From NCBI RefSeq assembly GCF_026914265.1, contig NC_069125.1, forward strand, positions 68,898,046 to 68,962,045: a stretch of DNA of 64,000 nt, written 5' to 3'. A program made the translations under genes and the position numbers. The first letter of the stretch is position 1. The number at the start of each line of letters is the position of its first letter. The notes beneath the pieces are model-generated. The model was given only the letters and a program-made list of their open reading frames with translations. It searched no databases and had not been told where the DNA came from. Shown here piece by piece: positions 15,401 to 61,909 of the stretch. Source of the DNA: Mya arenaria (taxonomy: Eukaryota > Mollusca > Bivalvia > Myida > Myidae).

Positions 15401-17088
15401 TTTATTGACATCCAGCTTGAAGTGTAGTATGAGTAGATGCTGATTGTTTTATGGACATCCAGTCTGAAGTGTAGTATGAGTAGATGCTGATTGTTTTATG
15501 GACATCCAGCTTGAAGTGTAGTATGAGTAGATGCTGATTGTTTTATGGACATCCAACCTAAAGTTTAGTATGAGCAGATGCTGATTGTTTCATGGACATC
15601 CATCCAGAAGTGTAGTATGAGTAGATGCTGATTGTTTTATTGACATCCACTCTGAAGTGTAGTATGAGTAGATGCTGATTGTTTTATGGACATCCAGTCT
15701 GAAGTGTAGCATGAGTATATGCTAATTGTTTGATGGACATCCACCCTGAAGTGTAGTATGAGTAGATGCTGATTGTTTTATGGACATCCACCCTGAAGTG
15801 TAGTATGAGTAGATGCTGATTGTTTTGTGGACATCCAGCCTAAAGTGTAGTATGAGCAGATGTGATTGTTATATAGACATCCAGCCTGAAGTATAGTATT
15901 TGTAGATGTTGATTGTTTTATGGACATCCAGTCTGAAGTGCAGTATGAGCAGATGCTGATTGTTTTATAGACATCCACCCTAAAGTGTAGTATAAGTAGA
16001 TGCTGATTGTTTTATGGACATCCAGCCTGAAGTGTAGTATGAGCAGATGCTGATTGTTTTATAGACATCCACCCTAAAGTGTAGTATAAGTAGATGCTGA
16101 TTGTTTTATGGACATCCAGCCTAAAGTGTTTTATGGACATCCAGCCTGAAGCGTAGCATGAGTAGATGCTGATTGTTTTATGGACATCCACTCTGAGGTT
16201 AGTATTAGTAGATGCTGATTGTTTTATGGACATCCAGCCTGAAGTGTAATATAAGCAGATGCTGATTGTTTTATGGACATCCAGCCTGAAGTGTAATATA
16301 AGTAGATGTTGATTGTTTTATGGACATCCAGCTTGAAGTTAGTATAAGTAGATGCTGATTGTTTTATGGACATCCACCTTGAAGTGTAAATAGATGCTGA
16401 TTGTTTTATGGACATCCAGTCTGAAGTGAAGTAAGAGTAGATGCTGATTGGTTTATGGACATCCAGTCTGAAGTGTAGTATGAGTAGATGCTGATTGTTT
16501 TATTGACATCCAGCTTGAAGTGTAGTATGAGTAGATGCTGATTGTTTTATTGACATCCAGCTTGAAGTGTAGTTTAAGTAGATGTTGATTGTTTTATGGA
16601 CATCCAGCCTGAAGTGCAATATAAGTAGATGCTGATTGTTTTATGGACATCCAGTCTGAAGTGTAGTATGAGTAGATGCTGATTGTTTTATGGACATCCA
16701 GCCTGAAGTGTAGTAAGAGTAGATGCTGAATGTTTTATGGACATCCAGTCTGAAGTGTAGTATGAGCAGATGCTGATTGTTTTATGGACATCCAGTCTGA
16801 AGTGTAATATAAGTAGATGCTGATTGTTTTATTGACATCCAGCTTGAAGTGTAGTATGAGCAAATGCTGATTGTTTTATGGGCATCCAGTCTGAAGTGAA
16901 GTAAGAGTAGATTCTGAGTGTTTTATTGACATCCAACTTGAAGTGTAGTATGAGTAGATGCTGATTGTTTTATGGACATCCAGCCTGAAGTGTAGTATGA
17001 GTAGATGCTGATTGTTTTATGGACATCCAGCCTGAAGTGTAGTATAAGTAGATGCTGATTGTTTTATGGACATCCAGCCTGAGGTGTA
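12472..17088. repeat. Minisatellite 1, 47-bp unit, about 95 copies
   Basis: A long tandem array whose unit is close to TAGTATGAGTAGATGCTGAT followed by a TTGTTTTATGGACATCCAGCC-like half, 47 bp in all. A run of unrelated sequence interrupts it near 12585-12730. Variants cluster regionally: TTTGAGGTGTAG types near 12.8-13.8 kb, CCCTGAAGTGTA types near 13.9-15.3 kb, and TTTTATGGACATCCAGCC types after 15.3 kb. A higher-order unit of 369 bp occurs at 14481-14849 and again at 14850-15218, with a shorter relative near 13270-13560. Long minus-strand frames across it (for example 13811-14488) are by-products of the repeat. Confidence 0.97.
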
Positions 17089-27679: not shown

Positions 27680-29835
27680 TGCTAGAACACGGACACACAG
27701 ACCATGCCACTGGTTCATCCTGACGGACTCCCACCCAGATACTATAACACGGACACACAGACCATGCCAACGGTCTATCCTGACGGACTCCCACCCAGAT
27801 ACTAGAACACAGACCATACCAACGGTCTATCCTGACGGCCTCCCACCCTGATACTAGAACACAGACCATGCCAACGGTCTATCCTGACGGACTCCCATCC
27901 TGATGCTAGATCACGGACACACATACCATGCTAACAGTTCATCCTGACGGACTCCCAACCAGATACTAGAACACGGACTCACATACCATACCAACGGTTC
28001 ATCCTGACGGACTCCCATCCTGATGCTAGATCACGGACACACAGACTATGTTAACAGTTCGTCCTGACGGACTCCCACTCAAATACTAGAACACAGACCA
28101 TGCCAACGGTTTATCCTGACTGACTTCCAACCAGATACTAGAACACGGACACATAGACCATGCTAACGGTTCATTCTGACGGATTCCCACCCAGATACTA
28201 GAACACGGACACACAGACCATGCCACTGGTTCATCCTGACGGACTCCCACCCAGATACTAGAACACGGACACACAGACCATGCCAACGATCAATCCTGAC
28301 GAACTCCCACCCAAATACTAGAACATGGACACACAGACCATGCCAACGGTCTATCCTGACGGATTCCCACCCAGATGCTAGAACACAGACCATGCCAACG
28401 GTTCATCCTGACGGACTTCAACCCAGATACTAGAACACAGACCATGCCAACGGTCTATCCTGACGGACTCCCACCCAGATACTAGAACACGGACACACAG
28501 ACCATGACAACGGTTCATCCTGACAGACTCCCACCCAGATACTAGAACACAGACACACAGACCATGACAACGGTCTATCCTGACGGACTCCCACCAAGAT
28601 ACTAGAACACGGACACACAGACCATGCCAACGGTTTATCCTGACGGACTCCCACCCAGATACTAGAACACAGGCCATGCCAACGGTCTATCCTGACGGAC
28701 TCCCACCCAGATACTAGAACACAGACCATGCCAACGGTCTATCCTGACGGACTCCCACCCAGATACTAGAACACAGGCCATACCAACGGTCTATCCTGAC
28801 GGACTCCCACCCAGATACTAGAACACAGGCCATGCCAACGGTCTATCCTGACGGACTCCCACCCAGATACTAGAACACGGTTTCACAGACTATGCCAACG
28901 GTTCATCCTGACTGACTCCCACCCATATACTAGAACACGGACACACAGACCATGTCAACGGTCTATCCTGACGGACTCCATCCCAGATACTAGAACACAG
29001 ACCATGCTAACGGTTCATCATGACGGACCCCCACCCAGATACTAGAACAAAGACCATGCCAACGGTCTATCCTGACGGACTCCCACCCAGATACTAGAAC
29101 ACTGACACACAGACCATGCCAACGGTTTATCCTGACGGACTCCCACCCAGATACTAGAACACTGACACACAGACCATACCAACGGTTCATCCTGACGGAC
29201 TCCCACCCAGATACTAGAACACGGACCATGCCAACGGTCTATCCTGACGGACTCCCACCCAGATACTAGAACACTGACCATGCCAACGGTCTATCCTGAC
29301 AGACTCCCACCCAGATACTGGAACACAGACACACAGACCATACCAACGGTTCATTCTGACGGACTCCCACCCAGATACTAGAACAAGGACCATGCCAACG
29401 GTCTATCCTGACGGACTCCCACCCTAGTGCTAGATCACGGACACACAGACCATGCCAACGGTTCATCCTGACGGACTCCCAACCAGATACTAGAACACGG
29501 ACTCACATACCATACCAACGGTTCATCCTGACGGACTCCCACCCAGATACTAGAACACGGTTTCACAGACCATGCCAACGGTTTATCCTGACGGACTCCC
29601 ACCCTGATACTAGAACACGGACAAACACACACACCATGCCAACGGTTCATCATGACGGACGTCCACCCAGATATTAAAACACGGACACACAGACCATGCC
29701 AACGGTCTTTCCTGACGGACGCCCACCCAGATACTAGAACACGGACCGTGCCAACGGTTCATCCTGACAGACTCCCACACAGATACTAGAACACGGACAC
29801 ACAGACCATGCCAACGGTCTATCCTGACCGACTAC
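27680..29835. repeat. Minisatellite 3, 60/52-bp units, about 37 copies
   Basis: A tandem array with a unit near GAACACGGACACACAGACCA then TGCCAACGGTCTATCCTGAC then GGACTCCCACCCAGATACTA, 60 bp. A second unit class lacks eight bases of the GGACACAC part and is 52 bp. The two classes are interspersed, with runs of the short class near 28660-28860. Minus-strand frames across it (for example 28378-28729) are repeat by-products. Confidence 0.97.
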
Positions 29836-30461: not shown

Positions 30462-31013
30462 TTATAACGATTTTCGTGAGTCCAGAGCACAAGTACATCC
30501 AATGGTAATTTCCTCCAATACCTCCTTGTAATCATAGACGCCATTTGTGCAGCCAGTTCTCTGCCAGACTTTAGTAAAGTAGCTTATTTCCCTACAAGAA
30601 GACCTCCGTGGTCCCCCAACACAATCACCTCTCGAGGGACAGTTACATTTCGCCTCCATTAAAATCTGCGGAATACGAGTCTTTTTGTAATTTAGTTGAT
30701 AGTGGTATGGGCACATTTCGAATATACGAGTTCGGTTAGTCAAAATTCCATCAAGTAGATCCGTTTCTTCTTCAAACTTGCAGTGTTTGTTTCCGAACAG
30801 ATACATGTTTTGAGCTCTTGTTCTTCTTGCAGTACTAGTTGTTCTATATTGATATATTGTATCATTTAATGATGGAAGCAGCCAAAACGAATCATGAAAT
30901 GCAAACGGTATCTCATTTACTCGTGGTAATGCTTCAGGTTCTCTACATGATAAAACTATGCTTGCATATGTCCAAAGTAAAACTAAGATTAAATCACACA
31001 GGAAAATGTACAT
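30462..31013 (-). CDS. IL-17-like secreted cytokine 3
   Basis: A 183-residue predicted IL-17-family ligand. Residues 1-22 form a signal peptide with an LILVLLW core. The signature is CPYHY at 101-105 in place of CPWY, an RIP turn, AKCNC at 121-125 and GCTC at 172-175, with additional cysteines at 131, 140 and 155. The start chosen is the ATG at 31013, because the signal peptide begins there and a TATA box lies 80-90 bases further upstream. The proximity leaves little room for an upstream intron. It lies 558 bp downstream of IL-17-like gene 4 on the same strand, so the two form a tight tandem pair that nevertheless differ widely in sequence outside the cysteine framework. Confidence 0.88.
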   Translation of the reverse strand: MYIFLCDLILVLLWTYASIVLSCREPEALPRVNEIPFAFHDSFWLLPSLNDTIYQYRTTSTARRTRAQNMYLFGNKHCKFEEETDLLDGILTNRTRIFEMCPYHYQLNYKKTRIPQILMEAKCNCPSRGDCVGGPRRSSCREISYFTKVWQRTGCTNGVYDYKEVLEEITIGCTCALDSRKSL

Positions 31014-31093
31014 TGTTTTGCTCTATGATTAGATTTTAATATTAATAAACCAGTAAGTTGATTTTAAGTCACGTTGTTCAGATCTATACGTTG

Positions 31094-31571: not shown

Positions 31572-32291
31572 TTACTCAATCATTCTTTCGTGGTCGCTTC
31601 CAGTGAGTTCACCTGTAGGGAGTCTCACTGCCACACACGCGACGTTTATATTTTCATTAATGGTCGCATACACGTATTGACCATTTTCACAACCAACCCT
31701 ACGTAAAACTTTAACTTGATGGACCACTTCTGCGCAAACAGAATTTTCAAGTCCTGGATCGGGACACAAACACTTGGTCTCCAAAAGGACTTTTGGTATT
31801 CTGTTTTCATCAGTGTTCTTTATATATGCCCAACTACATGCGGCTATGTTGTTGATCGTGTTTGCTCTACGGCGATGGCGCAACAGACGTCCCTCTGCAG
31901 CTACGAATGGCTTGTGGCATGTTCTGGGGCCGAAATAATGGCTGGTGGAATTATCGATGTAGCGTTCTGGAACACTGTCGAAAGACTCGGCATGGTTTGG
32001 TATATAGTTTGGAAGGCCACTGAATGTGAAGAAGGTCGTTATATCTTCGAAGTTCAATCCATCGCGATTTATAGTTGGTGGTTCTTCGCATTCTTCGCTG
32101 GCACGTGATGCATCAGATATTCCGCACATGTAAATACAGACGAAAACGACATACTTCTGAAATAGAAAAGGAACAAAAACTTATAATACATATATATATT
32201 TCAATATATATATTGTAAATATTCGAAAAATAAGTGTTTTTGTTTACAAAGTAGAGTTTTGAATTACCAGTATTCTGTTTGATATGGTCAT
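31572..32291 (-). CDS. IL-17-like secreted cytokine 4 (two exons), altered CTC motif
   Basis: A predicted 202-residue IL-17-family ligand. Exon 1 (32268-32291) encodes MTISNRIL and ends at a GTAATT donor. Exon 2 (31572-32156) follows a TTTCTATTTCAG acceptor and continues KYVVFVCIYMCG, so the two together form a normal signal peptide. The family signature reads CSWAY at 115-119, an ENRIP turn, TKCLC at 135-139, and further cysteines at 149 and 164. Where the other four members have GCTC, this one reads ACVAV at 181-185, losing the second cysteine. It also has a longer hydrophilic C-terminal tail ending in RMIE. A run of arginines (RHRRR) lies near residue 102. The missing cysteine would remove one knot disulfide unless another residue substitutes. 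Confidence 0.86.
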
Positions 32292-38726: not shown

Positions 38727-39278
38727 TTAGCTTTCTACAACGCACGTACATCCGATCACAATGGGTTCCACGGCGTACCTGTACACGTACTTCCCGGTGG
38801 TGCGGTCACACCCAGCCTTCCGTAGTACTCTCACGTAATAATGGACTGGCTGACATCTACTGCCCTCAATATCCGCGGAACAATTGTGACGTCTGTTGCA
38901 GTTACATTTGGCCTCCACTAAAGTCATCGGGCGTCTATTAGCATCAAAATTCAGCACATGGTGCCATCTGCACAAAGACATTTCAGAAACGTGCCCGCTG
39001 ATAGCGCCGTTTTCTACCGCGGAGCACGTACTGTTGTCTCCTCGGAGGTGTGATCTCTTAATACTTTTGAATCTTTCAATATCAATTGAATGGCGATGGT
39101 TGTTGGTCTCCAGCAGAAGAAATGATTCATGAACATCGTTTTCGAAGTTCAAACGCAAAAGGTCATCATCGGGCTCTGTGCAAGACGCGACATCTTCATG
39201 TCTTGTTAAACCACGGCATAGTGCTGTAGTGACCAGGGAGGCAGCCACCAGTGCTCCAATTATCATGTCAAATAGCAT
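38727..39278 (-). CDS. IL-17-like secreted cytokine 5
   Basis: A 183-residue predicted IL-17-family ligand. Residues 1-22 form a signal peptide (MIIGALVAASLV core). The signature reads CRWHH at 103-107 in place of CPWY, an NRRP turn at 114-117, EAKCNC at 122-127, and GCTC at 176-179, with further cysteines at 133, 142 and 157. The start is the ATG at 39278. A polypyrimidine tract and CAG lie a few bases upstream and could mark an acceptor, which would leave exon 1 as leader only; a second in-frame ATG lies at codon 5. A TATA-like sequence sits near 39400-39406. It is the last IL-17-like gene before the unrelated block to the right. Confidence 0.88.
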   Translation of the reverse strand: MLFDMIIGALVAASLVTTALCRGLTRHEDVASCTEPDDDLLRLNFENDVHESFLLLETNNHRHSIDIERFKSIKRSHLRGDNSTCSAVENGAISGHVSEMSLCRWHHVLNFDANRRPMTLVEAKCNCNRRHNCSADIEGSRCQPVHYYVRVLRKAGCDRTTGKYVYRYAVEPIVIGCTCVVES

Positions 39279-39399
39279 GTTCGGCTGAAAAAATACATGA
39301 CCATATAAGATGCCAAGTATAACATATTCTTATAAACTGCAGAAAATAGTTAACTTCGATTTGATTGTAAAATACTATTCTATACTTACATTCTTTTGG

Positions 39400-44441: not shown

Positions 44442-47400
44442 ATGCCTACTGAATCAATCAAATACGTGGTTTCGTTTTCATCTCAGGTAAACGTACACAT
44501 GTTCATGTGCACATGTATAAACATATATAAATTGGGTCATAAGGTAGTTGGACTGGACAAAGGGGACAGGGGCGTAGCGTGGGCAAATTTGATTTTACTC
44601 GAAATATTGAGATCTTTTTGCTTTGGGTCCTCCCCCTGATTTTTTTTAAATGAACGCAAAATCAGGGGTTTAAATTGATGTCAACTGTATAGTTTTTTAA
44701 GTTAAATTGGCATAGCCAGGAAAATTGACAGGCACATTCTTATATTTGGATACAATTCCAACGGGGCTCTCTTTATAGCTGTTTCAAGTGAGTTAGGGAC
44801 ACCTTCCGGCATCACTGCTGCCCATCTAGTTGATATCAGCCTCAAATTCTGTAAAGATTGCTGCACTGTCTCATTTTCCAGCTCACCAACCTGGTTTGGA
44901 ATAAGGTAATGCGCCCTAATACGCCCATGTGGGACAAGAAGGCGATCCCTTTATTGTGTAATGAGATGGTCTACGAATGGATTATACATGTTTCGTCTCT
45001 AGAAGTCTGATGGTGTTGCTGCTGGAACATTACTGTAGGCCTGTTTTCCTCCCTTTTAATGTGACAAGGAAGGGAAGGCTCTACTCCAACTTGCTGTGCC
45101 CAAACCACCACTTTAGTGAACAAATTGTCCCAAGTACCATCATCGTTCCTATCAGTATCAAGTTGGGCTGTTAAAAACTCTTGCCTCTAATAAAGCTTGA
45201 ACAAGATAGCATTTCTCTTTCTGCAACATCTTAAATAGAGGGGCGATGCCACTGAGAATGCACTCGACTGCTAGAGTGACGATGAAGTCGAAGCTTAAGA
45301 TCCCGCTTCTGTATGATGCATCCTTTATATCTCCATGTTCAGTCGCCAGCTTATTCAGTGCTGATTCCACGGCTACAAATGCGTACACAAACTCGAAACG
45401 AGGGGCAGCCCAACGCGTTGCACAGACTACAGTTTGGTTCTTTTCTCCATTTCTTGCTTGCTAGCCTGATCTCCTGCTAGCTGGTCTTTAAAGTATAGCA
45501 TTCGCTTAGCAGAATAGTTAAACGCAAATGCAATGGTTTGCACAAGATCCATCATATTCCTTGCACAGATCTCACTTTATGCGTGGACAATGGCCTTACA
45601 GTGTGTGTATACAGCTCCTGGGTACTGTTCTCTTGTGTGAACACCTCTAGTATATACAGTATGTTTACCTGGATGGAAAGGCATATGCTTGCACCAAATC
45701 CCACCTCGATGTCAATATCTTTATAAATTTAAAGTTATTGTCTGCATTCTTTTTTTCTTCTAAAACATCTGGATATGGAGGATCAAAGGTCATGTTTACT
45801 GCAGATGAAACTACCATAGGAAAACGGTGATGTAAACGATAAGGCAAGTAACACAGTAAAACATAATAGATACTTGAGCTAGGTTACCGGTCATAAACAA
45901 TATTGACACAGTGCTAGCTCTACTGAGCAATTAAACAATTGGCGTATTTTGTTACAAGAGTAGTATTTTTATGCCCCGGAAGGTGGGCATATTAAAATTG
46001 CACCGTCTGTCCGTCCGTGTGTCCGGCTCAATAACTCGTGTCCGGGCTGTAACTTTCCCTTGTATGGACAGATTTTAAAATAACTTGCCACATGTGTTCC
46101 ACATACCAAGACAACGTGTCGCGTGCAAGACCCGTGTCCCTACCTCTAAGGTCAAGGTCAAACTTAGTGTTTATTCACAATGGAGTGTTGCATAGAAAGA
46201 CATAGAGGATAGGTTGTCGTGTCCGGGCTGTAACTTTCCCTTGTATGGACAGACTTTAAAATAACTTGCCACATGTGTTCCACATACCAAGACGACGTGT
46301 CGCATGCAAGACCTGTGTCCCTACCTCTAATGTCAAGGTCACACTTAGGTGTTTATTCACAACAGAGTGCTGCATATAAGGACATAGAGTATAGGTTGTC
46401 GTGTCCGGGCTGTAACTTTCCCCTATATGGACAGATTTTAAAATAACTTGCCACATGTGTTACACATACCAGGACGACATGTCGCGAGCAAGACCCATGT
46501 CCCTACCTCAAAGTTCAAGGTCACACTTAGGTGTTTATTCACAATGGAATGCTGCTTATAAGGACATAACAGTGTAGGTTGTCAAGTTTGGGTGGTATTT
46601 TTTATGTTTAGAGGCAATTTAAAATAACTTGCCATATGTATTTGACAAGTAAAGGCAAGATCAACTTTTCATGTTCTGACCTTGTTCATAGGTCAATGTC
46701 ACATTCGGGGGCATTCGTCACATACTGTGACAGCTCTTGTTTATCTTTTTAATACTAACAGTAAGTAAGAATTCATCTATGCTACACCCTCTACATCCAT
46801 GCAAAATATTTTCATTGATTTTTTAGCATTTAAAAGGGAAATATTTTCATTGACTTTTTAGCATTTAAAAGGGATTTTTTTTACTTACAGTTTAAAAGTT
46901 AACTCGAATGAGTAAACAAGTATGCCACACTACACACATGATAGACAAAAGAAAGCATGGTGCAGAACCACAATTTATGGCTTTTATATCATGACATGGG
47001 ACCCCCCCCCCACCCCCCCAGGTCCGGAGGTATACATGGGCTGTGTTTTTACATTGTAGGTGGCCACACAGTGCCGAATGAATGCGGTGGGTTTTTTTTT
47101 TATTCCAAAAATGGCAGGTTATAGGCCTTGTCTAGTTATCCTGGGGTGCGGGGGGAGTTTTGCGGGGATTTACCAGCAGTTTGCTTGGCTGGACCGATAG
47201 TCAAAGTCCCGGCTATTCCCCGATGGGGGGGGGGAGGGGGGGCTGGTGCTGGTTACAATTGACTGGTACATAACAACTTATCATTATTCCACAAAAGTAC
47301 CACAATTTATGTAGAAAAAAATCCCTAGAGTTATAAAAAAGGTAAGACAAACGTTTTTACATTTAACAGGGCTTCCATTAAAGGAAGTTTGGAATACTTC

Positions 47401-50400
47401 CCCAAATGCCCTAAACTTACAAAAGGGAAGGTACAAAAACTTCCACTGTTATGAAGAAAACTTACAAAAGAGAAAGCTTTGCAGGCGTCGACACGAACAT
47501 TTTTTGAAGGGATCCCAAAGGGACTACTGCTTTTGAACTGGGATCCCTGCCTAAAACCAAAGATCCAATCCAAAATTAACATTACATACTGATACTTTCT
47601 CCACAGTTTTAGCCATTTTTTGTGGAAGACTAAATGTCAATTAAAAATGCCATAACACACTAACTTCATGTTTTAGAAAATAGAACAGGTGGAAATAGGA
47701 ATCAAGTCTTGAAATAAACTGTATTTGTGTTTTCAGGATGAGAAACATCCAGTCAGCAACTTGATCAAGGGAGATGGCTTCAAGAAGTGGCTCTGTCATC
47801 CGCAAGAACGTTCAGGACAAGTGGAAGCTATTTTCCAGCTGGAAAGGCCATGCATCATCTCATACATAGATCTGGGTACTCGATATCAGTTCATTGTCAT
47901 ATCATTAATTTTAAACAATAACTGAATATTCATAGGTTAAAGGACTGAACTTTGAGGACTTGTTGTTCAACATTATTATTTATAACCAATCATGGAACTA
48001 ACATAAAAGGGAAGTGTTATTGTTACATTTTTGTGTACAGAAGGGGTCTATTGTTGATTTTTTTCTGTTTCAGGAAGTTTATGGTGTGCTACCATTGAAA
48101 TCCAGGTTGGTTGTTCAGAATGGCCTGCAGGTCGGGAATATGAAACCCTGGCTTATACCGTCAACCTCATGACTCCTTCAGACAGCATGCAAAACAAAAA
48201 CCCAAACAAAACACAGATGTTCTCACCAGGTAGGTTATGTCTGACACAATGAATATGAGTCATACTGTTCCTTCATTTTGTTTTTGCTTGCAAGCTTATT
48301 TAACATTAAACACATTCTGATACATTCGATGAAACTGACAGCTTGGTCAAAATTAAATGATCAACAGAAATAAAAAAGAAAAAGAAAATGGTGTTTGAAA
48401 GAATTACGATTTTTATGTTTAGATCATTCAACTTAACAATGTATATATAATAATATTCATGAAAACAATTTCTAATTTTGGATTACATTTATTTTGAAAA
48501 GAGAGATATATGAGATGAATGACAAGAATAAGACATTTATCAGACTAATTTTAATGTCCATTTTTATTTTTATATGCCCATTCATATACGGTAACAGGGC
48601 GTATTGATACCTGCGGGGTAAGGGTAGGTGGTAGGGCAGGCAGTCTAGTATGTTGTCCAAACAATAACTTGAGAAACCTTCATCCAATCAGCACCAAATT
48701 TGGTTAGAATGTGTATGGCCATAATATGTTGGACAAGTTCAGTAACCAGCCATATCGCTCTGTCGATTCAGAGTTATCGCCCTTTGATTATAGAAATTAC
48801 CTAAAATTAGTCCTGTTTAATCAATAATTTTAGAAGCCTTCGTCCAAATTTGGTCAGAATAACTTCTTGGACAAGTTTGATAACCAGCCATCATGTTCCA
48901 TCAATCACTCCAGAGTTATGACCCCCAAAAATGTATATACAGTGTCATCTTAATTGGCTTAATGTACAATCACTTATCAGCAAACTTAGTATCCTAAAAA
49001 TTGAGATTAGCGTATAAATTGAGATCAGCTTATTTTGTGACAGTTAGTGTTCTTGTTAGTAGATGCAACCACATTGAGCTAATTGCCTGCAATTATATAT
49101 TTCCAACAAGAGTCACTGTTTTATCTATACTGACACGTGTATGATTGAACTGCCATTTTTTTCAAATTAATGTTATCATTTCCTCTATTATGTTTGAGCT
49201 ATTTTATCCAAACTTCATGATCATGGGTATATTACAGACATGTTCTGTCCTGAGATAGCAAAGAGGTCATGGGACAGGGTGAAGGTTGTATGTCGTCAGC
49301 CGTACAAGAAGCTCACCCAGTTTGGGCTCTCCTTTATCCGTGTGCGGTCAAATTCCACACCCACTGGGGCTGGTACAACGGGCCTTGCGGTCAACTGTGC
49401 TGAGAACAAATCTGCTTCTGTTAAAGACATTCAGAGACACTTCCTGGGAAAATTAGAAAATGGGTAATGTTAAGGATTAAATAGTTGAAGTTGTAGTGTG
49501 GTTTTCATGTGCTTAAAAAAAAGTTATGTGTAAAAATAATTAAAATGAACTTTCAAATACAGTAACTTTCATATGAATATAAATCAAACAAATAAGATAT
49601 TGGTGTGACCCAAATGTATTTCATATAAACTGAATTTTTATTCAATCAGGAAGAACAAAAACAATGACCCTCTGAAATCCCGCCTATTGAAGATAGCAGC
49701 CAGCTCGGAGAGTGGTTCTGAACACGATGACTCCCTGTCTCGCACAGCAAAACTTGTCCTGGCGGCATCAGCCATCAAAACAAACCCCTTTCTCAACCCT
49801 AGCCCTACTGGTAAAGGGGAGAGACCAGCTATGTACTCCAGCCATATGGAACAGAAATCTGCACCAAAGGTTATTGTAAATTTGTAGGAGTATTTTTTAT
49901 ACAAATAGGTATTGTTTTTCCCTTTTATTTGGCGTCTGGTCAGTGCAAAATCTTTGTCTGGCCAAAACTAAATAATTGTTCAAGATATCTGCATGAAACA
50001 TTGTACACAAAATCAACAAATGGTGTTGCAACTAAGGATAAAATAATGACCTTGTATTGTTGAAATTGATTGCTTATGATGCAAGTTGCAAATAATCATT
50101 TGCATAATCAAAGAAATGATAATAACCAAGTGGCTGTGATCATTTTAAATTGAAAAATACATATAATAGAATGTTTTATTCATTAAGAATCCCTCTTTGA
50201 CCTCAAAGTCTTATGTTGACCATGCTAGTAGCAACACATGTTCATTCAGCCATCTGAGAAACTATGACTGCATGTACATATTTCTATGTTACAGTTGGAT
50301 GAGGACATAGCAGAGTTCCTGGCCAGTTACCCTATAGATAGAACACAGCTGGACACCATCACTATCGCAGGTTTCACATCATCTACCTCAATAGAGTCAG

Positions 50401-53400
50401 AACTATTTAAAACAAAGTACAGTTGAACACTGTTAATCCGAAATCATAGGCACAATAAATATTATTTCGGAATAGCCATATTTCAGATTAACAATTTTCA
50501 GAAAATGACAGCATTCACAAATTAATAATGACGCAAAATATTATGTTGCGAAGATTCAAATGTCGGTTACACGTTACCAATAAAATACAGTCTGTTTGAG
50601 TGATCTTTCGTAAACAAAAATATTTGTTGATTTATTGTTTAATAAATGACAAATAATTTGTTATCATACTTCTTTTTTAAAATACATAAAACATTTAAAA
50701 ATGACAGCACATGTATGCATTCGGATAATAGCACGGATTGTTCGGTAGCCGGTCGAGTGTGCAATGCAAATCTGATGAGATAGATATTTTCGAATGATAT
50801 TCAGGTTGTGTTAACCAGCAATTATATACACACTACATTACACAAATGAATTGCTCATTATATGACATCGATCTTTGTAACATACGCGTGCTCAATGTCA
50901 TTCTTTAACAAGCACTAAGTGTGCTCCATTGTCACCTCAAACCGATGCCCAAGTGCATTCGAAGTATAGTGTGAAAACTATGACATGAGCGAGTTCGAAA
51001 TAAGAATTGATAAATAGGTGTGAAATATCAAATCTGGACTGTAATATTTACTTCGGACTAGGGATTTCGGATAAAAGATTAAAAATTTAGTTTAACATAG
51101 AAGAAGTAAAATCGGGACTGAAAAATAATTTTGAAATAGCGATAATTTCGGATAAACGGTGTTTGGAATAGCGGTGTTCAACTGTAAAGGATGATGATTA
51201 TAACCCAAGATAGATACATGTATATCTAGGGACTATATTGTTAAAGGAGTTGCATTGCATCATGTCCCAAACATATTGTGATGTCTGTAGGGTAAAAAGT
51301 ATGGCACCTACACAAATGAAACTTGAGTCATGTTTGTCACATTTCCATCAGGCTAACAAAAGTTAAGGAACTTAATAAAAAAAATGGTCTGAAAAACCTT
51401 GTGTTGTCATGTAGCACCAAAAATGTTTCACCTTCACACTTAAGGCTTCAACAGAATGGGCACCACCAATTTATGTTAATACTCTTAACTAAGTAAAAAT
51501 GGTATGAAAAGTTATGTTGCCTGCAACACTAGAAGGATTGAACATACGCTCACAAAACTTCAAAGGAATGTTGGTCGTCATGGGAAATGATGCATCTGCA
51601 ATCTTTGACATTTCACTTTGTACCTAACATTTCATCAATATTTATGGTCCTCAAAGTGTTTTGGGATTCTTTTAATGCTTTATATTATACACTTTTAAAA
51701 TTTTAACCTGAAAATATTTAAAGGCCTTTATTCCATATGTCATGTGAATTCCTTGTAAAACAGCTATAAAAACCCTGCTTGCTCATAAAATTCAGGAAGG
51801 GACATCTGATTATGGTGCAATTTGTGGTGACCCTTCAAGATCCCTGGGAAATATAGTTAGTGTCAACCTCTGTGGAGTCATTCATCACAACTGTGATAGC
51901 TCTAGTTGCCATTGACCTACTAGTAGATCAACAGGATAACTCTTGTGTTGCTGGTTTCTTCAGTTTCAGTTGACCCTACCAGGAACATACATTCTGTGCA
52001 TCAATTTCATTTCAAGATTTTGTAGTAAGCCTTGAGTAATGCTTCTTGAAATGGAGAAATATGGACCAGAACAATTCCCAGTCTCATATTTGAACACAGT
52101 CTTACCTAAGATTATAAGTGACTGCATATTGCACCTTGAGATACCCAAAAAAGGTTATCTGTATCCTTTGAACATACATTTAGGTAAAAGCTTGATATAG
52201 AACTGTTTTTTAGCTCTACTGGCCAAAGGCCAGAAGAGCTTATGCGATGGTAATGTGTACGTAGTCAATGCGTTCTTGCGTCTGTAAACAATTGCTTGTG
52301 AACACGATACAGTCTTGCCTAGATTATGGCCCTTGATAATATAAAAAAATGCTATTGTGTAAACAATTGGTTGTGAACACGATACAGTCTTCATTTTTGA
52401 TTGTTTCTCGATGAAACTTGTACAGTATCTAGATATCCATTAGAGCTCGGTTCCTTTCGAAAACCAGCCAGATCCGCCCATGCCTGCCTAGATTATGGCC
52501 CTTGATAGTATAAAAAAATGCTATTGTGTAAACACTAGCTTGTGAACATGATAAAGTCTTCAGTTTTGATTGTATCTCATTGAAACTTGTACAGTATTTA
52601 GATATCCATTAGAGCTCGGTTCCTTTTGAAAACCAGCCAGATCTGCCCATGCATGCCTGGATTATGGGTCTTGAAAGTATAAAAGATACTATTTTAAGCG
52701 AAGTCTATTTTTAGCCAAGGCTACATGAGCGTCTATTTATAGCCAAGTTTACATGTAAGGTCACAATTGCTTGTGAAGGTTTGTTCAAATTATGCCCCTG
52801 GGGTCATTACTGCCCCCCCCCGGAGATATTTTCAAAATCTTGTTTCAAACCACAAGGCCCATACCTTTTTTATTTGTTGTGGAGCATCATATGTTGCAAT
52901 TGAAAACATTTGAAATAATGCCCCTTGGGCAAAAGCTGGCCCCACCCCTTTTGACTTTTTTATAAATTTTTAAAGCTACAGTAATGAAATTTTGACCATG
53001 TGAACAGTTTTGCAAACAAGCATTAATGTTTTCCTCGGATGTCCTTGGCTTTGACCTTTGACCGACTTTATTTTTAAAGCTATAGAAATGAAATTTTGAC
53101 CATGAGTACAGTTTTGAAAGCAAATATTCTTTACCCTCAGATTACCTTGACTTGGCACATATTAAAATAGTTCATGCAAATAATCTGCTTACAACACCTT
53201 TCCTCAGATGTTGAACGTGCAGCGTTTTCAGCTAACCCAAGCACTAAAAGTGAACTATATATTTGTTGCCTATTACTCAAACGTACATGCTCTGAATTGA
53301 AAATGACCACAAGAGCCATGCCAGTAGAGCATAGGCCCTTTTGGGCCTCTTGTTTTTGTAACTTTTCAATATGAACTATATTATTGAATCAATGGAATAA

Positions 53401-56400
53401 AATATAATTTCAGATCTCAGACACAAGTTTGAAAAACAGAAAAGACGAAAGTTGACCAAAGATGAAAAGAAGATCTTCATCAAGATGACACAAGATTTTA
53501 TCATGGAATTGTTTAAAGAACAGACAAATGAGTGTCCGGGGAAAGAAAATGAAAAATCAAATGTGGATAGTGAAACAAGAGCACCAAATACTGTTCATTC
53601 TAGTAAAGATGAAAACAAAAATCTGAATGCAGATCAACATTCGTCGATTAGGAACACGAATCCTGTTGAAGTGAAATCTGCTAAACAATGCTCAAGTGAT
53701 ACAGCACCTCAAAGAGCTGAAATACTGAATGTGCCAAGGGACAGAACTCCTAGCACCAAAAGAAAACTAGAAACAGATGTAGTTACTCCCCCTGCAAAGA
53801 AACCAACTGGAATGAGACAACAAATGAAGAGTGTTGAAAAACAAATATGTGTAATTGATAAGAAAGATATTATGAATGACATAAAGAAAAGCAAAGGCAT
53901 CTTTGATCCATTAAAAAACTGCACTTCTACGCCGATTAATGTACCTTTTCAATACAAGGGCCTTAGAGGAAGTGACATTGATCTCGATTCATCTTCCATG
54001 TTTCCATCACCTAGTAGCGCAAAGAATAACAAAATCAACGCCGTCTCAGTTTGTGAGTCTCCTACAAATGGATGGTTAAACACCTCCAGAGGCCCCAATA
54101 TCTCTAACTGCTCTGATATCCAGTCCACTTCAATGTGCCAGAAGTCTAATGTTTCAGGCAAGTCAACTCCAATGAGTCAAAAATCTAATGTTTCTGACAA
54201 TGTGATTAAAACATCTTTCAATTCTTCTGGAATGAAGAAACCGTCATTTCTGGAGCTGCTGTCAAGCAGTGACGACGATGAAGATATCTTGCAGGGTTTG
54301 GAGGCAGCTATGAAGAAAGGCCAGCGTGGCAGGGGGCGTGGTCGTGGGAGAGGAAGGGGCAGGGGTGAGTGTAACATAGCTGCTATGTAGACATTCACTT
54401 TTACTTCCATCCTGGCTACACTTTCACATTTTAGTCTTAACGGTTAACTACTGTTTAATTACTTTAGTGTTTGATAGAATTGATAAGACATTATATATAG
54501 AAGCATTTATATATTCTAGACTAATATTAAAGTTTTTATTAATCATACTGTTGACAGCCATGGTCATGTGTTTTGAATGAACATAAAAATAAAATAACTA
54601 AATTTTAGGCCGAGGAAAACATTCTTCATCAAATTCAATTCACCTGGATGACGATGATGACCTTGACTTTCCCTCACCACAGAAGAGAGGCCGTGGCAGA
54701 GGGCGGAGTAGGGGTCGGGGTGAGTTGTAGATATGGAATAATGCTGCTGTATATAACAATAATCTAGTTATTGAGAGTGAAATTAAAATTCTGCTTTTAA
54801 ATATCCTCTCAATTGTACAGTTCAAGACTATGCTCAGATAAAACTGATTATTTGATAAATTCAAGCATTTCACTGTCACTTGTATTTGAACATTGACAAA
54901 CTATAGCCTTATTAATGCAGGGTTCTCAATAAGTTTTGGTTGAACCGTCTCAAATAGTAAAGTAAACGACCAGCTTCTACTTATTCTACTGAAAATTCAT
55001 TTAGTTTTCCAAATTTGAACCGGCCCTATTGCCATTTGAACCGTCCATTTTGGCCGGCAGCCGGTTCTTATTGAGAACACTGTAAATGTAGTAAACATAT
55101 AAAAAATGCATTAATTTGAATAGTTAATGAACATGGGAAAAATTTAGTCTCTACGCTTGTAATGCATTTTAGGTACAGGTAAAAAATCTGCATCTGCTAT
55201 TGACCTTGATGACAGCGATGACCTTGGCTTTTTGTTGCCAGGCAGCAGAGGGCGTGGCACGGGTAGAGGGAGGGGTCGTGGAGCTAAGAGGCGAAAGACG
55301 ATTTGGTGAGTTGTATAGGGAATGCAATCCTTATAGCTTGTTTTATTTTTTCTCCCTTCCTTTTGGATAGAGAGGTACGCTTCGAGGCAAGAATCTTCAT
55401 TTGGGTTTGTTTGTTTCATTGAATTCATTTGCATTTACTTACTGAATAAGTCTGAAAATATTTGTGATTAGAGGGAAAATGGTATTTGCATTAGTCTGGC
55501 TTTCCACACAATGAATGAAAGCCTGCTGTACTCCTACAGTGAAGCTCCAACACCAATAGACAATGATGTGATAGTGGCATCTGAGAGTCCGAATCTGCCA
55601 GCAGTCCCGCGAGGGTTCTCCCGCTGTCCAGGATGTCAAGGTGAGCTTAATCATGCAACAGGCTGTTTTATACAAGCCTTAAAGACACATGTTTAATTAT
55701 AATTGTAATCAATCATCTAAGCACTCTTCAGTCTTGTTCAATAGAATTATAACTAGATATTAATTTGACAGCATCAAATTAATCACACTTCTGCACTTTG
55801 TATATTCCAATTTGATTTAGCACTATTCTCTCTCAATTAAATTACTGTGATGTTTATTATGTGAATATGAATAATTAATGTCATGAGATAAATGCAAATT
55901 AATTATACAAACACATTTTTGGACCACCTTATCAACGAGCCTACGACAATGTATTGTAAGATCTGGAACTTCAAATAAACCTAGTGTAAATTTACTGTCC
56001 AACTTATTACAAAGATATTGCAAATCAACCAAGAATGAAAGGTTTGAAAAAAAAGATGTTTGACAAACTTGTTGAAAAGATGGCCCTTCTATGTATTGAC
56101 TTTGAGGACAATCCTATTTGCAGATTTCTTTGGAGAAAGCCTGTTGGGAGCCCACAAGATTCGATGTCCAGCCTTGAAGTCAAGCCAACCTGCGTCTGGA
56201 GAGAAAGCAACACCAGACTCTAGTTTATGTGCAGGAAACATGTCCGCAAAGCAGTGAGCATTTTAGACAGCTTTTCATTGTATTGAACTATACTATACAT
56301 ATTCTAAATGAAAACGTTTAAAGGCTATAGGCGTAACAAGCATGATTTTGCTTTTTATACAATTCTGATCACAGACAATAAAAATCAAAATCTGTCCCCA

Positions 56401-58185
56401 AACAGGTACCAATAAGTCGTTTATTGCAACTGTAAAGTTAATGAAATGAAACAGGATATTGGCTGAGGTTTTTTTTACCATTTGTAGTAGGCAATGTAAG
56501 GCAGGGTCTTTTAGTCTACACATTTACATTTTCTGCGTAATTATCTATAACTATCCATTCCCCTCAGTTCCTCATCACGATTTATTTAAGGTTCTTTGGC
56601 TTGCTATCAAATTCAAGTTAACCTTGCAATCTTATGAACATATTGAAATAAAGGGTTCCTTTTGTTTGTACGCTTTTACGCCGCATAAGACCTAAGGCCC
56701 ACAGCCTAAAAAATGCTTATCATTGCAAAGTAAATTTTACATGTGAACTCTGTTGAGTGTTGGTTTATAGTCGAACAATCTGAAAATAGATGTACATGCA
56801 GCTTTGTACAATGTATTCTTATTTGGTTATACATCAGTAACTATTAGGTTTACATCAGTAACTCTTTTCTGTACTTTTTTATACAAACAATTAATATATC
56901 TTAATAATTACCATAAATCTTCTGCCAGAATAATGTGTATTGAAGTATTGTATGACTAAACAAAGATTGATTTAGCTTCAAGTAATTTAATCATGTTCTG
57001 ACATTTTTTCAGGACATCAACTTGGACAAGGGAAGTTCGACCAACTAGTTTTGAAAAATGCAGTGGCTGCAATGGTAGTAACTTATTAATAATTATTATT
57101 TATTCTGGGTGTAATGAATATTATTTAGAATAACTGCTTGTTTGCATTGAATAAGTAAAATGCTTGTTTTTATCTTCAATATGTAGGTCATAATAGGTAA
57201 ACATGTAGGTCACAATAGGTGAATATGTAGGTCACAGTAGGTGAATATGTAGGTCACAGTAGGTGAATATGAAGGTCACAATAGGTGAATATGTAGGTCA
57301 CAATAGGTGAATATGTAGGTCACAGTAGGTGAAATATATTTGGCATGTTCACATTAGTGTTAAGTTAAACTTGTTATTATTATACCTTGTGTATTTATAA
57401 TCACTGTAGAGTTTCCACAATATTTTTCAGAGCACTTTGCCGCATCATCCCTGTCTATGCACCAGACAAAATGTAAACGATGGCAGATTTTGAATGGCAA
57501 CCAAACTAATCCAACAAGTCCAGCGACAGAGAAGGTATTGGCCAATCAAAACGCTACCTGTACAGGGCAGAAACTGGGCTCAGGTTTTAAGGGCTCTGAA
57601 TCACCAACAATATCTGGGAGTGAGTCCGCCAGCGGATTAGAATCGCCCCCATGGCTCCAGGCTGCTGAAAGGAGACTTCAACGGCAGACATCGGGGAAAA
57701 CTGACACAGTTTGTAGAAACAGTGAGAGTAATGGTACATGCAGCTCTCTTGTGAACTCCGATATGACGAGTCCGGTATTGGAGTCTCAACAGTTTATGTT
57801 GGAAAAATATAGCAGGAATTCCCTGCAGACCAGTAGTACAGTAGTTCAGAATCATAATAGAAGTCAATCTAGTCAGAGTCTGTCAGTGCTGGGAAACAAT
57901 AGTGCAAGCAGTGTAGGTCAAAGTACCAGTCACAGAGGATCACAGTCTAGTCAGATAGGTTCAGCCAGAGGGCTGGGTTACAGTGCAATCAGTGATGATG
58001 GTGGGATTACAGAATCCTGTGTAACTTCCAATTCAAATTATTCCGTAGCTAGTAGGCAGCCTTGGAACCAACCAGGTGCAGGAGCCGCAGAGCCCCAGGG
58101 AGAAGTTCAAGTAGAGTGCCCCCTGTGTGCTGACTTGTACCCAACATACCTTATAGAGATGCATGCAGCTGTATGCAGTTTATAG
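44442..58185 (+). CDS. XNDC1-like protein: XRCC1 N-terminal domain, RG-rich modules and three UBZ4-like fingers
   Basis: Thirteen exons: 44442-44486, 47737-47875, 48074-48229, 49238-49463, 49650-49869, 50295-50370, 53414-54364, 54609-54719, 55173-55305, 55540-55640, 56124-56253, 57013-57074, 57431-58185. All have GT-AG borders and agreeing phases, summing to 3105 bases (1034 residues). Residues 1 to about 165 match the XRCC1 N-terminal domain, and match XNDC1 better than XRCC1: start MPTESIKYVVSFSSQ, then GYIDLG-like and SWDRVKVVCRQP blocks. In XRCC1 this domain binds DNA polymerase beta; no BRCT is present here. Residues 288-604 are polar with possible nuclear signals (KRK, AKK). Exons 7 (end), 8 and 9 each carry an acidic stretch then RG repeats. 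Three C-x2-C-x11-H-x3-C fingers lie near 715-734, 779-798 and 1013-1032. A nuclear, damage- or ubiquitin-linked role is inferred. Confidence 0.88.
44750..45850 (-). mobile_element. hAT-like DNA transposon remnant in intron 1
   Basis: The minus strand carries pieces of a hAT-family transposase. LVQTIAFAFNYSAKRMLYF lies near 45545-45490, followed by CATRWAAPRFEFVYAFVA near 45425-45370, where the family usually has CxTRW. Next comes a helical stretch SGILSFDFIVTLAVECILSG near 45310-45250. A C-terminal part near 45150-44780 reads like the segment before the dimerisation domain. Several stops separate the pieces, so it is inactive. It lies wholly inside the first intron of the XNDC1-like gene, in antisense. 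End repeats were not located. Confidence 0.6.
45968..46745. mobile_element. Dispersed non-coding element with about 181-bp internal repeats
   Basis: It starts TATGCCCCGGAAGGTGGGCA and ends CATTCGTCACATACTGTGAC then AGCTCTTGT. Inside, GTGTCCGGGCTGTAACTTTC occurs at about 46039, 46220 and 46401, giving a period near 181 bp. A degraded fourth unit follows. It has no coding frame. Sequences of this look are dispersed in bivalve introns; it lies in intron 1 of the XNDC1-like gene. Confidence 0.6.
46805..47240. repeat. Short direct repeat and homopolymer runs in intron 1
   Basis: A unit of about 36 bp (ATATTTTCATTGA...TTTAAAAGGGA) is doubled near 46807-46874. C runs occur near 46999-47022, a T run near 47092-47101, and G runs near 47224-47240. 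Confidence 0.8.
48560..48945. repeat. Dispersed repeat piece in intron 3
   Basis: Contains ACCAAATTTGGTTAGAATGT, GGACAAGTTCAGTAACCAGC and a later diverged echo (CCAAATTTGGTCAGAATAAC and GACAAGTTTGATAACCAGCC). This gives an internal repeat of about 170 bp. The wording resembles the element at 3392-4341. It is non-coding. Confidence 0.5.
50418..51186. mobile_element. Pogo/Tigger-like MITE with TA duplications in intron 6
   Basis: The element proper is 50420-51184. Its left end reads CAGTTGAACACTGTTAATCC and its right end is the inverted form of CAGTTGAACACCGCTATTCC. Both ends are flanked by TA, the expected target duplication of the Tc1/mariner-pogo superfamily, whose pogo branch often starts CAGTTGAA. 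The 765-bp interior has no transposase frame and carries further pieces such as TTCGGAT near both ends. It sits 49 bases after exon 6. Confidence 0.75.
52212..53357. mobile_element. Dispersed element in intron 6 with inverted ends
   Basis: It begins TAGCTCTACTGGCCAAAGGCC and ends GCCAGTAGAGCATAGGCCC then TTTTGGGCCTCTTGTT. The GCTCTACTGGC end is thus the inverted complement of GCCAGTAGAGC. The inside has two diverged units of about 178 bp around ACAGTCTTCATTTTTGATTG and ATCCATTAGAGCTCGGTTCC. Later parts carry the block GCTATAGAAATGAAATTTTG. It shows no coding capacity. Confidence 0.65.
54918..55082. mobile_element. Small MITE in intron 8
   Basis: The ends CAGGGTTCTCAATAAG and CTTATTGAGAACACTG are inverted repeats differing at a few positions and enclosing 165 bp. 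The CAGxGTT start is typical of hAT-type ends. A clear 8-bp target duplication was not found. An interior ACCGGCC/GGCCGG pairing gives it partial foldback character. Confidence 0.65.
57181..57332. repeat. 22-bp tandem repeat in intron 12
   Basis: About seven copies of GTAGGTCACAATAGGTGAATAT with minor variants, between exons 12 and 13 of the XNDC1-like gene. The G/T-rich AGGT units resemble donor and acceptor motifs but lie deep in the intron. Confidence 0.92.
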
Positions 58186-58929: not shown

Positions 58930-61909
58930 TCAAACAAGACCGGCTCTTTTCTTCTTGAAAACCGCAATTATTATAATCACACTGAAGAATATTGCACCAA
59001 GCTGAAAAATGGAAGAAAACATTTAATTGAGGTCTAAACAGTACATTTTGAACAGTATGATAAGTGCTGTCTAATTTCGGAATAAAAACATTGAACTCTA
59101 AGCCCACCAGCTGAGGTCAAATACAAGTTTGTGACCGGAGTGATTAAAGCTATTGAAGAAATTGTATTCATCATATCGATTTATGGAGGAAATCAACAAT
59201 TGGTAGATAATGCAATACATGGCGTTACCTCTGCTAGAACTAACAGACTTGCGACGGAAACAGCCGCCGAACCTAGCTGGTTGAACGTTCGATCAAATGC
59301 GTCATAGCAACCCTGGAATGATAGAGATACGACAGCTACACCACACATGTAAACAACAACAGAACTATACTTTCTGAAATGGAAGTAGATAAAACAAAGG
59401 AAATAGGGAAACATGTGTATTAGAATTGTCCCCTTTCATTTTTACGTTCAGCAACAACAACCGTGACCGGGATAAATATGTTTTTTTTACGAAATTAATA
59501 GGAAAAACGGTATATGCTTAACGTCAAATGTTGTGTTGAAACCTTACATCTGTGATTGTTTTGGTTTATTTTTGTGTCGTAATAGGAATTACTCTGCGTC
59601 GACGACGTCAGCTAAACCTTGGGCAGATTGTAAATTAAGAATATTTTGTCCACTCATGACGAAACTTGGTGACAGTATATTGGGCCATAATGACTCGGTC
59701 AAGTTAGTCTTGTTTAATTATAAACTTATTTTATTACCCATTCATGATAAAACTTGGTGAGATTATTTATGGGCATACTATGTTGGATATATTTGATTAT
59801 GGGTCAGATCACCTCAGTACCTCAATTAATTACAAATTTTGCTCCTTTTACAATAAAATATCTACTAGAATTGGTTTGACTGTGGTAGGCACATTAAATA
59901 GGCGACACATTCAATTCCGAGGAATTATAATATTTAAAATGGAAGAGTTTTACTGTCCGAGTGCATCTAGTAACTACATACTGATGTATGATATCCTTGC
60001 AAGTTCACAGTGCAGTCTGTGTTTGTGTAGTTAAGGTAGTTGTCAACGGCCACATCCTTGCAGCACGCATGCGGGATGACGTCACTTCCGCGGTCACCGT
60101 TCGTCCAAAACGCTGACGGAAGCGTCTCAAAATCATTCGAGGACGCTGTTATTGGGTGCACTCCACAGCAATCAAACTGCAATATATGTTATAATAGAGT
60201 AGCGAACATATTTGTTTTCATATTGAAACTCGGGACACTCTTATCAACGATGCAATCAATCGTATTTAGTGGTTATCATTACAAAATGCATGATTAAATC
60301 TATTTTTAATGATGCCAATATAATAAACATATTTGGGATTTGGATATTGTAATTTCTGGTCTGTTCGGTCTAACGATCGACGGTTAGACGAGTACAGTTT
60401 TATATATCCAGACTAGAAATTGGTATGATGAATTAAAGTCGGACTAAACTAATAAAGCATTGATAGTTACGAAGTTCACTATTAATGCTATTATACCATC
60501 GTCGGAACCCACATTACTCATCGGAATAAACCATGGGAAAATATCAGAGCGCAACTTCTTAAGGAATGATTATTCCTTGGCATTTCCCGTCCCCGATTTC
60601 ATGACCGAAAGGTTTGAGGGGTGTATCTCAGGCGTCCATATTAACGTCTGGATTTCACGAGGACGAAGTATCTGCAGTCAACTTGGTCAGGGTATTCAAT
60701 GGTGTATGTTATGAGTAGCCAGGGTAGCGAGTATGCTTTTATACATACGAGTATGAAGATGAAGTCCCAGCCCACAGTGTAGACGGTGATGTCGGAGAAT
60801 CCCGTGTACTCCTTCAGTAGGTCCAGGAACAGGGTCTCCAGGGCGTAGTCCACCTATGGATCCAAACAGTATCATATAATATAACTGCTCTGATATGATT
60901 TATGACGAACATGTGAAGAAAAAAATGCATAGCTCTACCAGTACCGTATTTAAGTTAGCATAGCCAGTTATATAGCGCGTTTTTCCGTAAAAGTAATACA
61001 AATTACAGGGGACTGTCATTTACGGAATGTTCTGTTTATTTCGTATTTCATTATTATGTAGAAGTCTACTGGTATCAAGTACATACCTCTCGTAAAAGCT
61101 TGACCCACAAGCTGACCACGGCAATTTCAACGATTATGACGAGGATGATGATGCCTATGTACTGAAATAGATATGTTGTCAACACAACTACCAGTGGTAC
61201 ATGATTTTCCTTGAAAATAATACAGCTGCATTCCTTAATAATTTGTATTTAATAGATTTAAACTAAGTAACGGTTCGGATACTCACAAGAAACAAGAGAA
61301 CACGTAGTGTGAAGAACGCGCCAATGCCGCCTATGAGTGATAGAACAATGGCAAACGCTCCGACGATAAATATGATGATGATCAGCGCATCGACGACCGT
61401 GCGGAGGTTGAAGTCGCCAAAGTCCACGAGCTCGAGGAGCTCCATGACGTTCTCGTTCTTGCTGATCTCCGAGTCCACATACTTCCCCACGATGATGATA
61501 CCCACACCCAACAACTGCAAGTACACGTCGTGCATTATGAGGAGGCGGGGCGGGCTGTTTTACATAAACATAGGACTTAAAAGTGTTCTGCATTTTGTCC
61601 ACGAATTAAACGTATACATGTATAATTCTTAAAGGGGCAGTCAATGGAAGTAACAATATATACGCTCTGGTGGTAAGACCCTTAACCGCCGACATTGCTT
61701 GAACGGGTTTCAAACTTGATTCTACTTAAAAGTTAGCACAATCTTTAGGTATAAATTAATTTTAATATTATAATATTGAGGCACAAATCGCTACATACCA
61801 GCGATAAGATGTTCAGAACGACGAGCACGACGATGCCGACGTTAGCGAGGAACGTGAGTAAGGAGTTGTCGGGCCCGTTCTGGGCGGTCTTAGTCCCTCC
61901 ACCACCCAT
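58930..61909 (-). CDS. Tetraspanin (seven exons)
   Basis: Seven exons on the minus strand: 61799-61909, 61287-61514, 61087-61161, 60749-60853, 59982-60176, 59229-59312 and 58930-59001. All have GT-AG borders and all are in phase 0, totalling 870 bases and 289 residues. Tetraspanins are four-pass membrane proteins that organise adhesion and receptor microdomains. Membrane segments lie near residues 17-46, 80-102, 106-130 and 249-282, ending in a KKKRAGLV tail. The large extracellular loop (about 139-245) contains the CCG hallmark at 176-178, a HACC pair near 209-212, one cysteine near 228 and GCY at 239-241, giving six cysteines or three disulfides. The start MGGGGTKTAQNG has no clear alternative. 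The gene converges on the XNDC1-like gene, and part of it is duplicated to the right. Subfamily not assigned. Confidence 0.93.

Follow-up and report, generated by a model that had tools for sequence, protein, structure and literature searches.

A probable bivalve XNDR/XNDC1 orthologue that joins an XRCC1-type N-terminal domain to three C2HC zinc fingers

Introduction

XNDR, also known as XNDC1, was named by Frankenberg and colleagues as a gene distinct from TRPC2, which adjoins it in most of the vertebrates shown (PMC3170594). Its describers report the gene throughout the jawed vertebrates, in teleosts and mammals alike, and failed to detect it in the lancelet and the sea squirt; no mention of protostomes was found in the text consulted (PMC3170594). 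Very little work has been done on XNDC1: a mouse screen published in 2026 reports that PubMed returns zero results for it and lists fused vertebral processes for the homozygous knockout mouse (PMC12876460). Among the open-access papers searched that contain XNDC1, XNDR or related names, no invertebrate XNDR was evident by title; one paper, on the fruit fly and the mouse, contains the name Xntrpc once (PMC11468086).

In XRCC1, a pocket spanning F67 and V86 receives the V303 loop of polymerase beta (PMC6614843), and the substitutions V86R and R109A in the human protein weaken polymerase-beta binding, with the KD rising from 10.2 nM to 284 and 170 nM, respectively (PMC8405949). As regards the fingers, those of WRNIP1 and RAD18 have a Pro-Val loop and a helix Asp, those of FAAP20 and Pol-eta have D(-4), A(0) and L(+3), and a third group has neither set (PMC4370504, PMC4267625). 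RAP80 binds mixed SUMO-ubiquitin chains through one SIM and two UIMs (PMC12731174) and also has C-terminal zinc fingers (PMC3391255). Cep104 has an XRCC1/APC10-like N-terminal fold and a C2HC array that binds Nek1, with CP110 as a competitor (PMC5222566). Here, we describe a gene from a 64-kb stretch of DNA (C4:68898046-68962045, hereafter the window) in the genome of a probable mollusc, of which 1.216 Gb in 18 contigs were searched.

Results and Discussion

The gene is located on the plus strand between positions 44442 and 58185 of the window, where 13 exons join in phase into a reading frame of 1034 codons followed by a stop. GT...AG ends were found in 12 of the 12 introns and the phase fits at every join, which bears out the exon structure proposed in a first-pass annotation of this DNA. 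Exon 1 (44442..44486, aa 1-15) begins the XRCC1_N domain, which continues through exons 2 (47737..47875) and 3 (48074..48229) and ends at aa 149 in exon 4 (49238..49463), the remainder of which encodes a linker. The Pfam XRCC1_N profile (PF01834) matched residues 1-149 along its positions 1-148 of 148 (E 8.5e-46, 156.1 bits, cut-off 21), confirming the XRCC1-type domain that had been annotated there, and a PDB sequence search retrieved the solved XRCC1 domain 1xna (E 2.8e-32). Because the profile is covered end to end and 1xna is aligned from residue 1, exons 1-4 can be regarded as supported.

The gene was rejected as XRCC1 itself, since no BRCT was among the five Pfam families listed for the protein to E 1 and a separate XRCC1 locus with a BRCT is present in the genome. 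Two XRCC1_N loci were found in total (five exon matches among 11 scored candidates); the second is at C4:57.52 Mb on the minus strand, 11.4 Mb from the window gene, and has at least one BRCT match (C4:57518412-57518540, 27.5 bits, over the cut-off), which reads VVFVLSGFQNPFRGELRDRALAMGAKYRADWGKDCTHLV. Both genes have the N-terminal domain in common, and they differ in the BRCT, in the residues at F67, V86 and R109, which are changed in the window protein, and, judging by eye, in their intron positions. Over 151 aligned residues, the window protein is identical to human XRCC1 at 61 and to the animal's own XRCC1 at 52, and the two XRCC1 proteins are identical to each other at 90. A genome search with the window protein returned 13 matches, of which 12 were this gene and the remaining one hit the XRCC1 locus weakly (E 0.0136); at the sensitivity of that search, the gene is single copy.

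For the comparison with XNDR, we used a provisional sequence of the mouse XNDR domain, to which the window protein is identical at 68 of 152 residues. In 14 alignment columns the window protein and the provisional XNDR were split from both XRCC1 proteins, while the other two pairings were favoured by 3 and 1 columns, and a tree of these four taxa placed the window protein with the provisional XNDR in 100% of 200 bootstraps. F12, P20 and T86 are common to the window protein and the provisional XNDR, with P20 occurring also in the animal's own XRCC1. Two printed tammar primers (PMC3170594) translate to MAPVKI and RRTFFP and agree with the provisional sequence at those stretches only; no counterpart of RRTFFP was noticed in the window protein. 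The XNDC1-like N-terminus seen in the first-pass annotation is therefore favoured by the grouping, with the qualification that the XNDR side of the comparison is a provisional sequence, and orthology of the window gene to vertebrate XNDR/XNDC1, on the same provisional sequence, is a strong lead rather than proof, which we consider probable. Like XNDR, the gene combines an XRCC1-type N-terminal domain with a locus separate from XRCC1; the difference is that XNDR is reported, in the text available, from jawed vertebrates, whereas this gene belongs to a probable mollusc. Relatives were also sought in prokaryote and viral contigs, where 32 and 2 pattern stretches were found, respectively, and none was confirmed in either, as was to be expected because neither collection comprises animal genomes.

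The linker continues through exon 5 (49650..49869, aa 189-262). Exon 7 (53414..54364, aa 288-605) encodes, after the rest of a Tad8-like segment that is discussed below, the stretch KRKLETDVVTPPAKK (aa 403-417), which looks like a bipartite nuclear signal, followed by a first acidic stretch and an RG block. Further modules of this kind are found in exon 8 (54609..54719), which has phase 1 at both ends and encodes a second acidic stretch (SIHLDDDDDLDF) and RG block, and in exon 9 (55173..55305), which encodes a third acidic stretch (AIDLDDSDDLGF) and RG block together with a basic KRRK. When segments with bounds chosen by hand were considered, the net charge alternated from -5 (564-590) to +9 (591-608), -6 (609-627), +7 (628-643), -3 (644-662) and +9 (663-684), each pair being an acidic stretch and then an RG block. 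Within 585-685 lie 18 of the 23 RG dipeptides of the protein. Positions 476, 615 and 651 mark the starts of I-x-L-acidic motifs, the last two of which precede RG blocks, and the pattern [VI]-x-L-[DE]-[DS]3, which was framed after inspecting the sequence, occurs three times, a number that was reached in 0 of 5,000 shuffles. Strict SUMO-motif patterns were at chance level, with a single LELLSSS match (at least one arose in 932 of 5,000 shuffles) and zero matches of the other pattern.

Three fingers with the RAD18/UBZ4 spacing, C-x2-C-x11-H-x3-C, had been reported for the C-terminal part, and the same three were recovered here, at aa 715-734, 779-798 and 1013-1032. Among 20,000 shuffles of the protein, at least one such motif arose in 13 and three motifs in none, and in the unspliced window read in six frames the pattern was found twice, as finger 3 and as one Cys/His/Tyr-only stretch. 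Finger 1 is divided between exon 10 (55540..55640), the 3' end of which lies within it (CPGC), and exon 11 (56124..56253), which holds its H-x3-C remainder; finger 2 is likewise divided between the 3' end of exon 12 (57013..57074, CSGC) and exon 13 (57431..58185), which goes on to encode a Ser/Asn-rich spacer, finger 3 (58117..58176, plus strand, CPLCADLYPTYLIEMHAAVC) and the stop. Support for the joins between exons 10 and 11 and between exons 12 and 13 comes from the complete finger that each of them restores. In both of these fingers, the intron falls five residues past the first Cys and in phase 1, which also supports the two joins, and finger 3 lies within one exon; since intron position and phase are common to the first two, they suggest that these fingers are duplicates of each other.

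In RAD18 and WRNIP1 the Asp is placed two residues after the His, and its absence from all three window fingers, already noticed in the first-pass annotation, was confirmed: the residues at this position are I, T and A. Finger 1 has PG in the loop and G at H-2, finger 2 has SG and S, and finger 3 has PL and E (E1026) and, after its A at H+2 (A1030), S at +3; its E and A occupy the D(-4) and A(0) positions of FAAP20. Judged by these positions, fingers 1 and 2 would fall with the third group, as neither residue set is seen in them, and finger 3 appears to be a partial match to the FAAP20 class (E and A, but S at +3) with a WRNIP1-like loop; the chance that one of three fingers carries such an E/A pair is about 2%. 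The exact spacing and, in finger 3, the Pro and hydrophobic loop residue are shared with the UBZ4 fingers of RAD18 and WRNIP1, from which all three differ in lacking the helix Asp. With FAAP20 and Pol-eta, finger 3 shares the acidic residue at -4 and the Ala at 0, but it has Ser rather than Leu at +3 and is without the C-terminal Trp, and the gap between the second Cys and the His is 11 residues as against 15 in FAAP20. The C-terminal fingers of RAP80/UIMC1 resemble finger 3 in the C-x2-C-x11-H-x3-C spacing, the PLC loop and IE-x-H-A. The missing Asp is not enough by itself to exclude ubiquitin binding, since a different mode operates in the fingers of FAAP20 and Pol-eta (PMC4370504, PMC4267625); the possible ubiquitin binding, called uncertain earlier, narrows to finger 3, the only finger with residues for it.

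Profile and structure searches with single fingers gave weak matches. With finger 1 alone, no Pfam model passed; with finger 2 alone, zf-C2HC_2 passed (29.4 bits, cut-off 27), a match that reached 22.1 bits within the whole protein; and with finger 3 alone, zf-WRNIP1_ubi gave 15.2 bits (cut-off 26.4), a model that was unlisted for the other two. For fingers 1 and 2 there was a weak resemblance to XAF1_C, both within the whole protein (22.2 bits; cut-off 25.8) and when taken singly, in each case below the cut-off. In the PDB, the best matches of finger 3 were the WRNIP1 UBZ (E 0.056) and the RAP80 zinc finger (E 0.15), neither significant alone, and those of fingers 1 and 2 were an oestrogen receptor (E 0.044) and a C2HC/C3H protein (E 0.089), which were also not significant. 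As yardsticks, the RAP80 finger matched WRNIP1 at E 0.033, about as near as finger 3, and WRNIP1 matched RAD18, a true UBZ4 pair, at E 3e-6. When finger 3 was modelled by itself with AlphaFold, the models (pLDDT 64.5 and 63.6) had helices but no strands and were too poor for judging the beta-beta-alpha fold of UBZ4 fingers.

These results bear on the possibility that the ligands of the fingers are DNA or proteins, with ubiquitin bound by none of them, by analogy with the C2HC array of Cep104. The missing contact residues of fingers 1 and 2, the passing of the general zf-C2HC_2 model by finger 2 when taken alone and the parallel of Cep104, in which a C2HC array likewise occurs together with an N-terminal fold of the XRCC1/APC10 kind (PMC5222566), agree with such a role, but the Pro-Leu loop, E(-4) and A(0) of finger 3 and its nearest, albeit weak, solved matches, the UBZ and RAP80 fingers, do not, and we consider this possibility rather unlikely. 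The identities of the two proteins that serve as parallels were rejected, as no TOG, which would be needed for Cep104, and no UIM, which would be needed for RAP80/UIMC1, was among the Pfam families listed to E 1; by the tests made, the window protein is not a RAP80 and, at most, would work like one. In the open-access literature available, we noticed no described protein that joins an XRCC1_N domain to three such fingers, in line with what had been stated when the locus was first annotated.

The first-pass annotation had further proposed that the protein could link ubiquitin signals to polymerase beta. In the alignment, the window protein has T, T and Q at XRCC1 F67, V86 and R109, all encoded by exon 3, as well as A at L88, F at C12 and P at C20. 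It keeps E69, which we take to be a contact residue of XRCC1; C12 and C20 are presumably the redox pair of that protein. The animal's own XRCC1 keeps F67, E69, V86, L88, R109 and C12 and has P at 20. The polymerase-beta gene was found at C2:57.77 Mb (C2:57770955-57771634) as two pieces (E 1.6e-4 and 0.11), and only with a polymerase-beta C-terminal query; the genome search with DNA_pol_B_palm marked a single place, on contig C12, which we assume to be polymerase lambda from the way it reads. Read by eye, the loop of the animal's polymerase beta is RPVGSTG and then VPGEPLP, which puts V and S at L301 and V303. The animal's own XRCC1 thus keeps the F67-V86 pocket, while its polymerase beta departs at the two matching loop positions.

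The proposed link to polymerase beta is thus weakened by T, T and Q in place of the F, V and R of the animal's own XRCC1, but the change is not decisive because the polymerase beta itself has V and S at L301 and V303. From the aligned residues, a canonical contact appears unlikely and a remodelled one possible. That the protein is a polymerase-beta adaptor with such a remodelled contact would fit the full-length XRCC1_N domain, the retained E69 and the departure of the animal's polymerase beta from the vertebrate V303 loop, which makes a compensating interface conceivable; against this stand the changes at three positions that its own XRCC1 leaves unchanged, and the weaker binding of human XRCC1 with V86R or R109A (PMC8405949), and we regard it as improbable.

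The weakest join of the gene model is that between exon 6 (50295..50370, aa 263-288) and exon 7, with the donor CAG|GTTTCA scoring -0.37 on an approximate donor matrix, at the 56th percentile among all GTs in the window. On the same matrix, exons 2, 12 and 5 also have modest donors (74th, 83rd and 86th percentile) and the other eight exceed the 91st percentile. The frame is kept as well when either of two alternative exon 6 donors is paired with either of two alternative exon 7 acceptors, and inside intron 6 there are four candidate exons with open frames. When exons 6 and 7 were joined directly, aa 263-307 matched Pfam Tad8 at positions 35-76 of the profile (E 6.2e-5, 23.1 bits, below the cut-off of 27), with exon 6 supplying the first half of the segment; Tad8 was unlisted for the exon 6 half, the exon 7 half and the form in which exon 6 reads through. 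The direct join is favoured by this sub-threshold match alone. Tad8 itself inhibits Thoeris defence. No support was obtained for a phage origin of this segment (0 PHROGs families), the best PDB match of the segment had E 0.34, and a genome search with it gave 0 matches, which shows nothing either way as the control genomes gave none either. That the locus consists of two genes, an XNDR-like one ending just past exon 6 (FKTKYS and then a stop) and another that begins with exon 7 and encodes the zinc fingers, is an arrangement to which the weak donor, the 3,043 bases of intron 6 and the 18 codons through which exon 6 reads to a stop would lend themselves, but it is quite unlikely given the Tad8 match seen only with both exons joined, the fitting phase and the lack of a Met in exon 7 before aa 312.

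Several features were observed around the gene. On its low-coordinate side is an interleukin-17 cluster of five ORFs, each scoring above the cut-off of the Pfam IL17 model (E 1.2e-11 to 1.8e-19), at 6633-7211 (-), 10150-10794 (+), 30465-31022 (-), 31575-32180 (-) and 38730-39329 (-). Long ORFs of repeated peptide units were seen by eye at 13800-16300, 22000-22950 and 28400-29760 and are likely minisatellites rather than genes. Also by eye, a repeat unit of about 180 bases was seen in roughly three divergent copies in intron 1 (about 46000-46600), and a short tandem repeat with units containing GTAGGTCACA and GGTGAATATG in intron 12 (about 57185-57335). At 59000-61600 on the minus strand there are pieces resembling a tetraspanin-type membrane gene, two ORFs of which had no Pfam match to E 0.01.

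Conclusions

The original interpretation of this locus is partly supported. The sequence itself shows the gene model, the identity of the domain, the altered interface residues, the finger signatures and the intron position common to fingers 1 and 2, whereas the species group, the orthology to XNDR, the nuclear location, the binding of ubiquitin and SUMO and the role in damage are inferred. The reading that we prefer, tentatively and with confidence somewhat short of even, is that the gene, present as a single copy, is a bivalve orthologue of vertebrate XNDR/XNDC1 and an ancient sister of XRCC1, and that its product is a nuclear, non-catalytic repair adaptor with RG, SUMO-like and ubiquitin-reading parts. 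We infer that such a protein would most likely act at damaged DNA. Its XRCC1-type beta-sandwich would hold a partner that is unlikely to be polymerase beta bound in the known geometry, the RG blocks would contact nucleic acid or poly(ADP-ribose), and the I-x-L-acidic stretches may bind SUMO. Finger 3 would use the FAAP20/Pol-eta mode to bind ubiquitin attached to nearby chromatin or repair proteins; as a putatively duplicated pair without ubiquitin-contact residues, fingers 1 and 2 may bind DNA or protein or be structural. Together, these parts would suit an adaptor in the nucleus that recognises modification marks, for which RAP80 is the working parallel. More speculatively, and in our view rather doubtfully, XNDR could be a sister of XRCC1 of bilaterian age whose ancestor was a SUMO- and ubiquitin-reading scaffold, polymerase-beta binding and BRCTs having been swapped for RG, SUMO-like and UBZ modules, and of which vertebrates kept a reduced version.

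A mollusc relative of XNDC1 would push the origin of the gene back beyond the vertebrates and would offer a concrete, testable parts list for the function of XNDC1. The window protein would also provide a naturally occurring form of the XRCC1 domain in which the contact with polymerase beta is altered, and it may couple damage signalling to a repair complex different from the usual one with polymerase beta.
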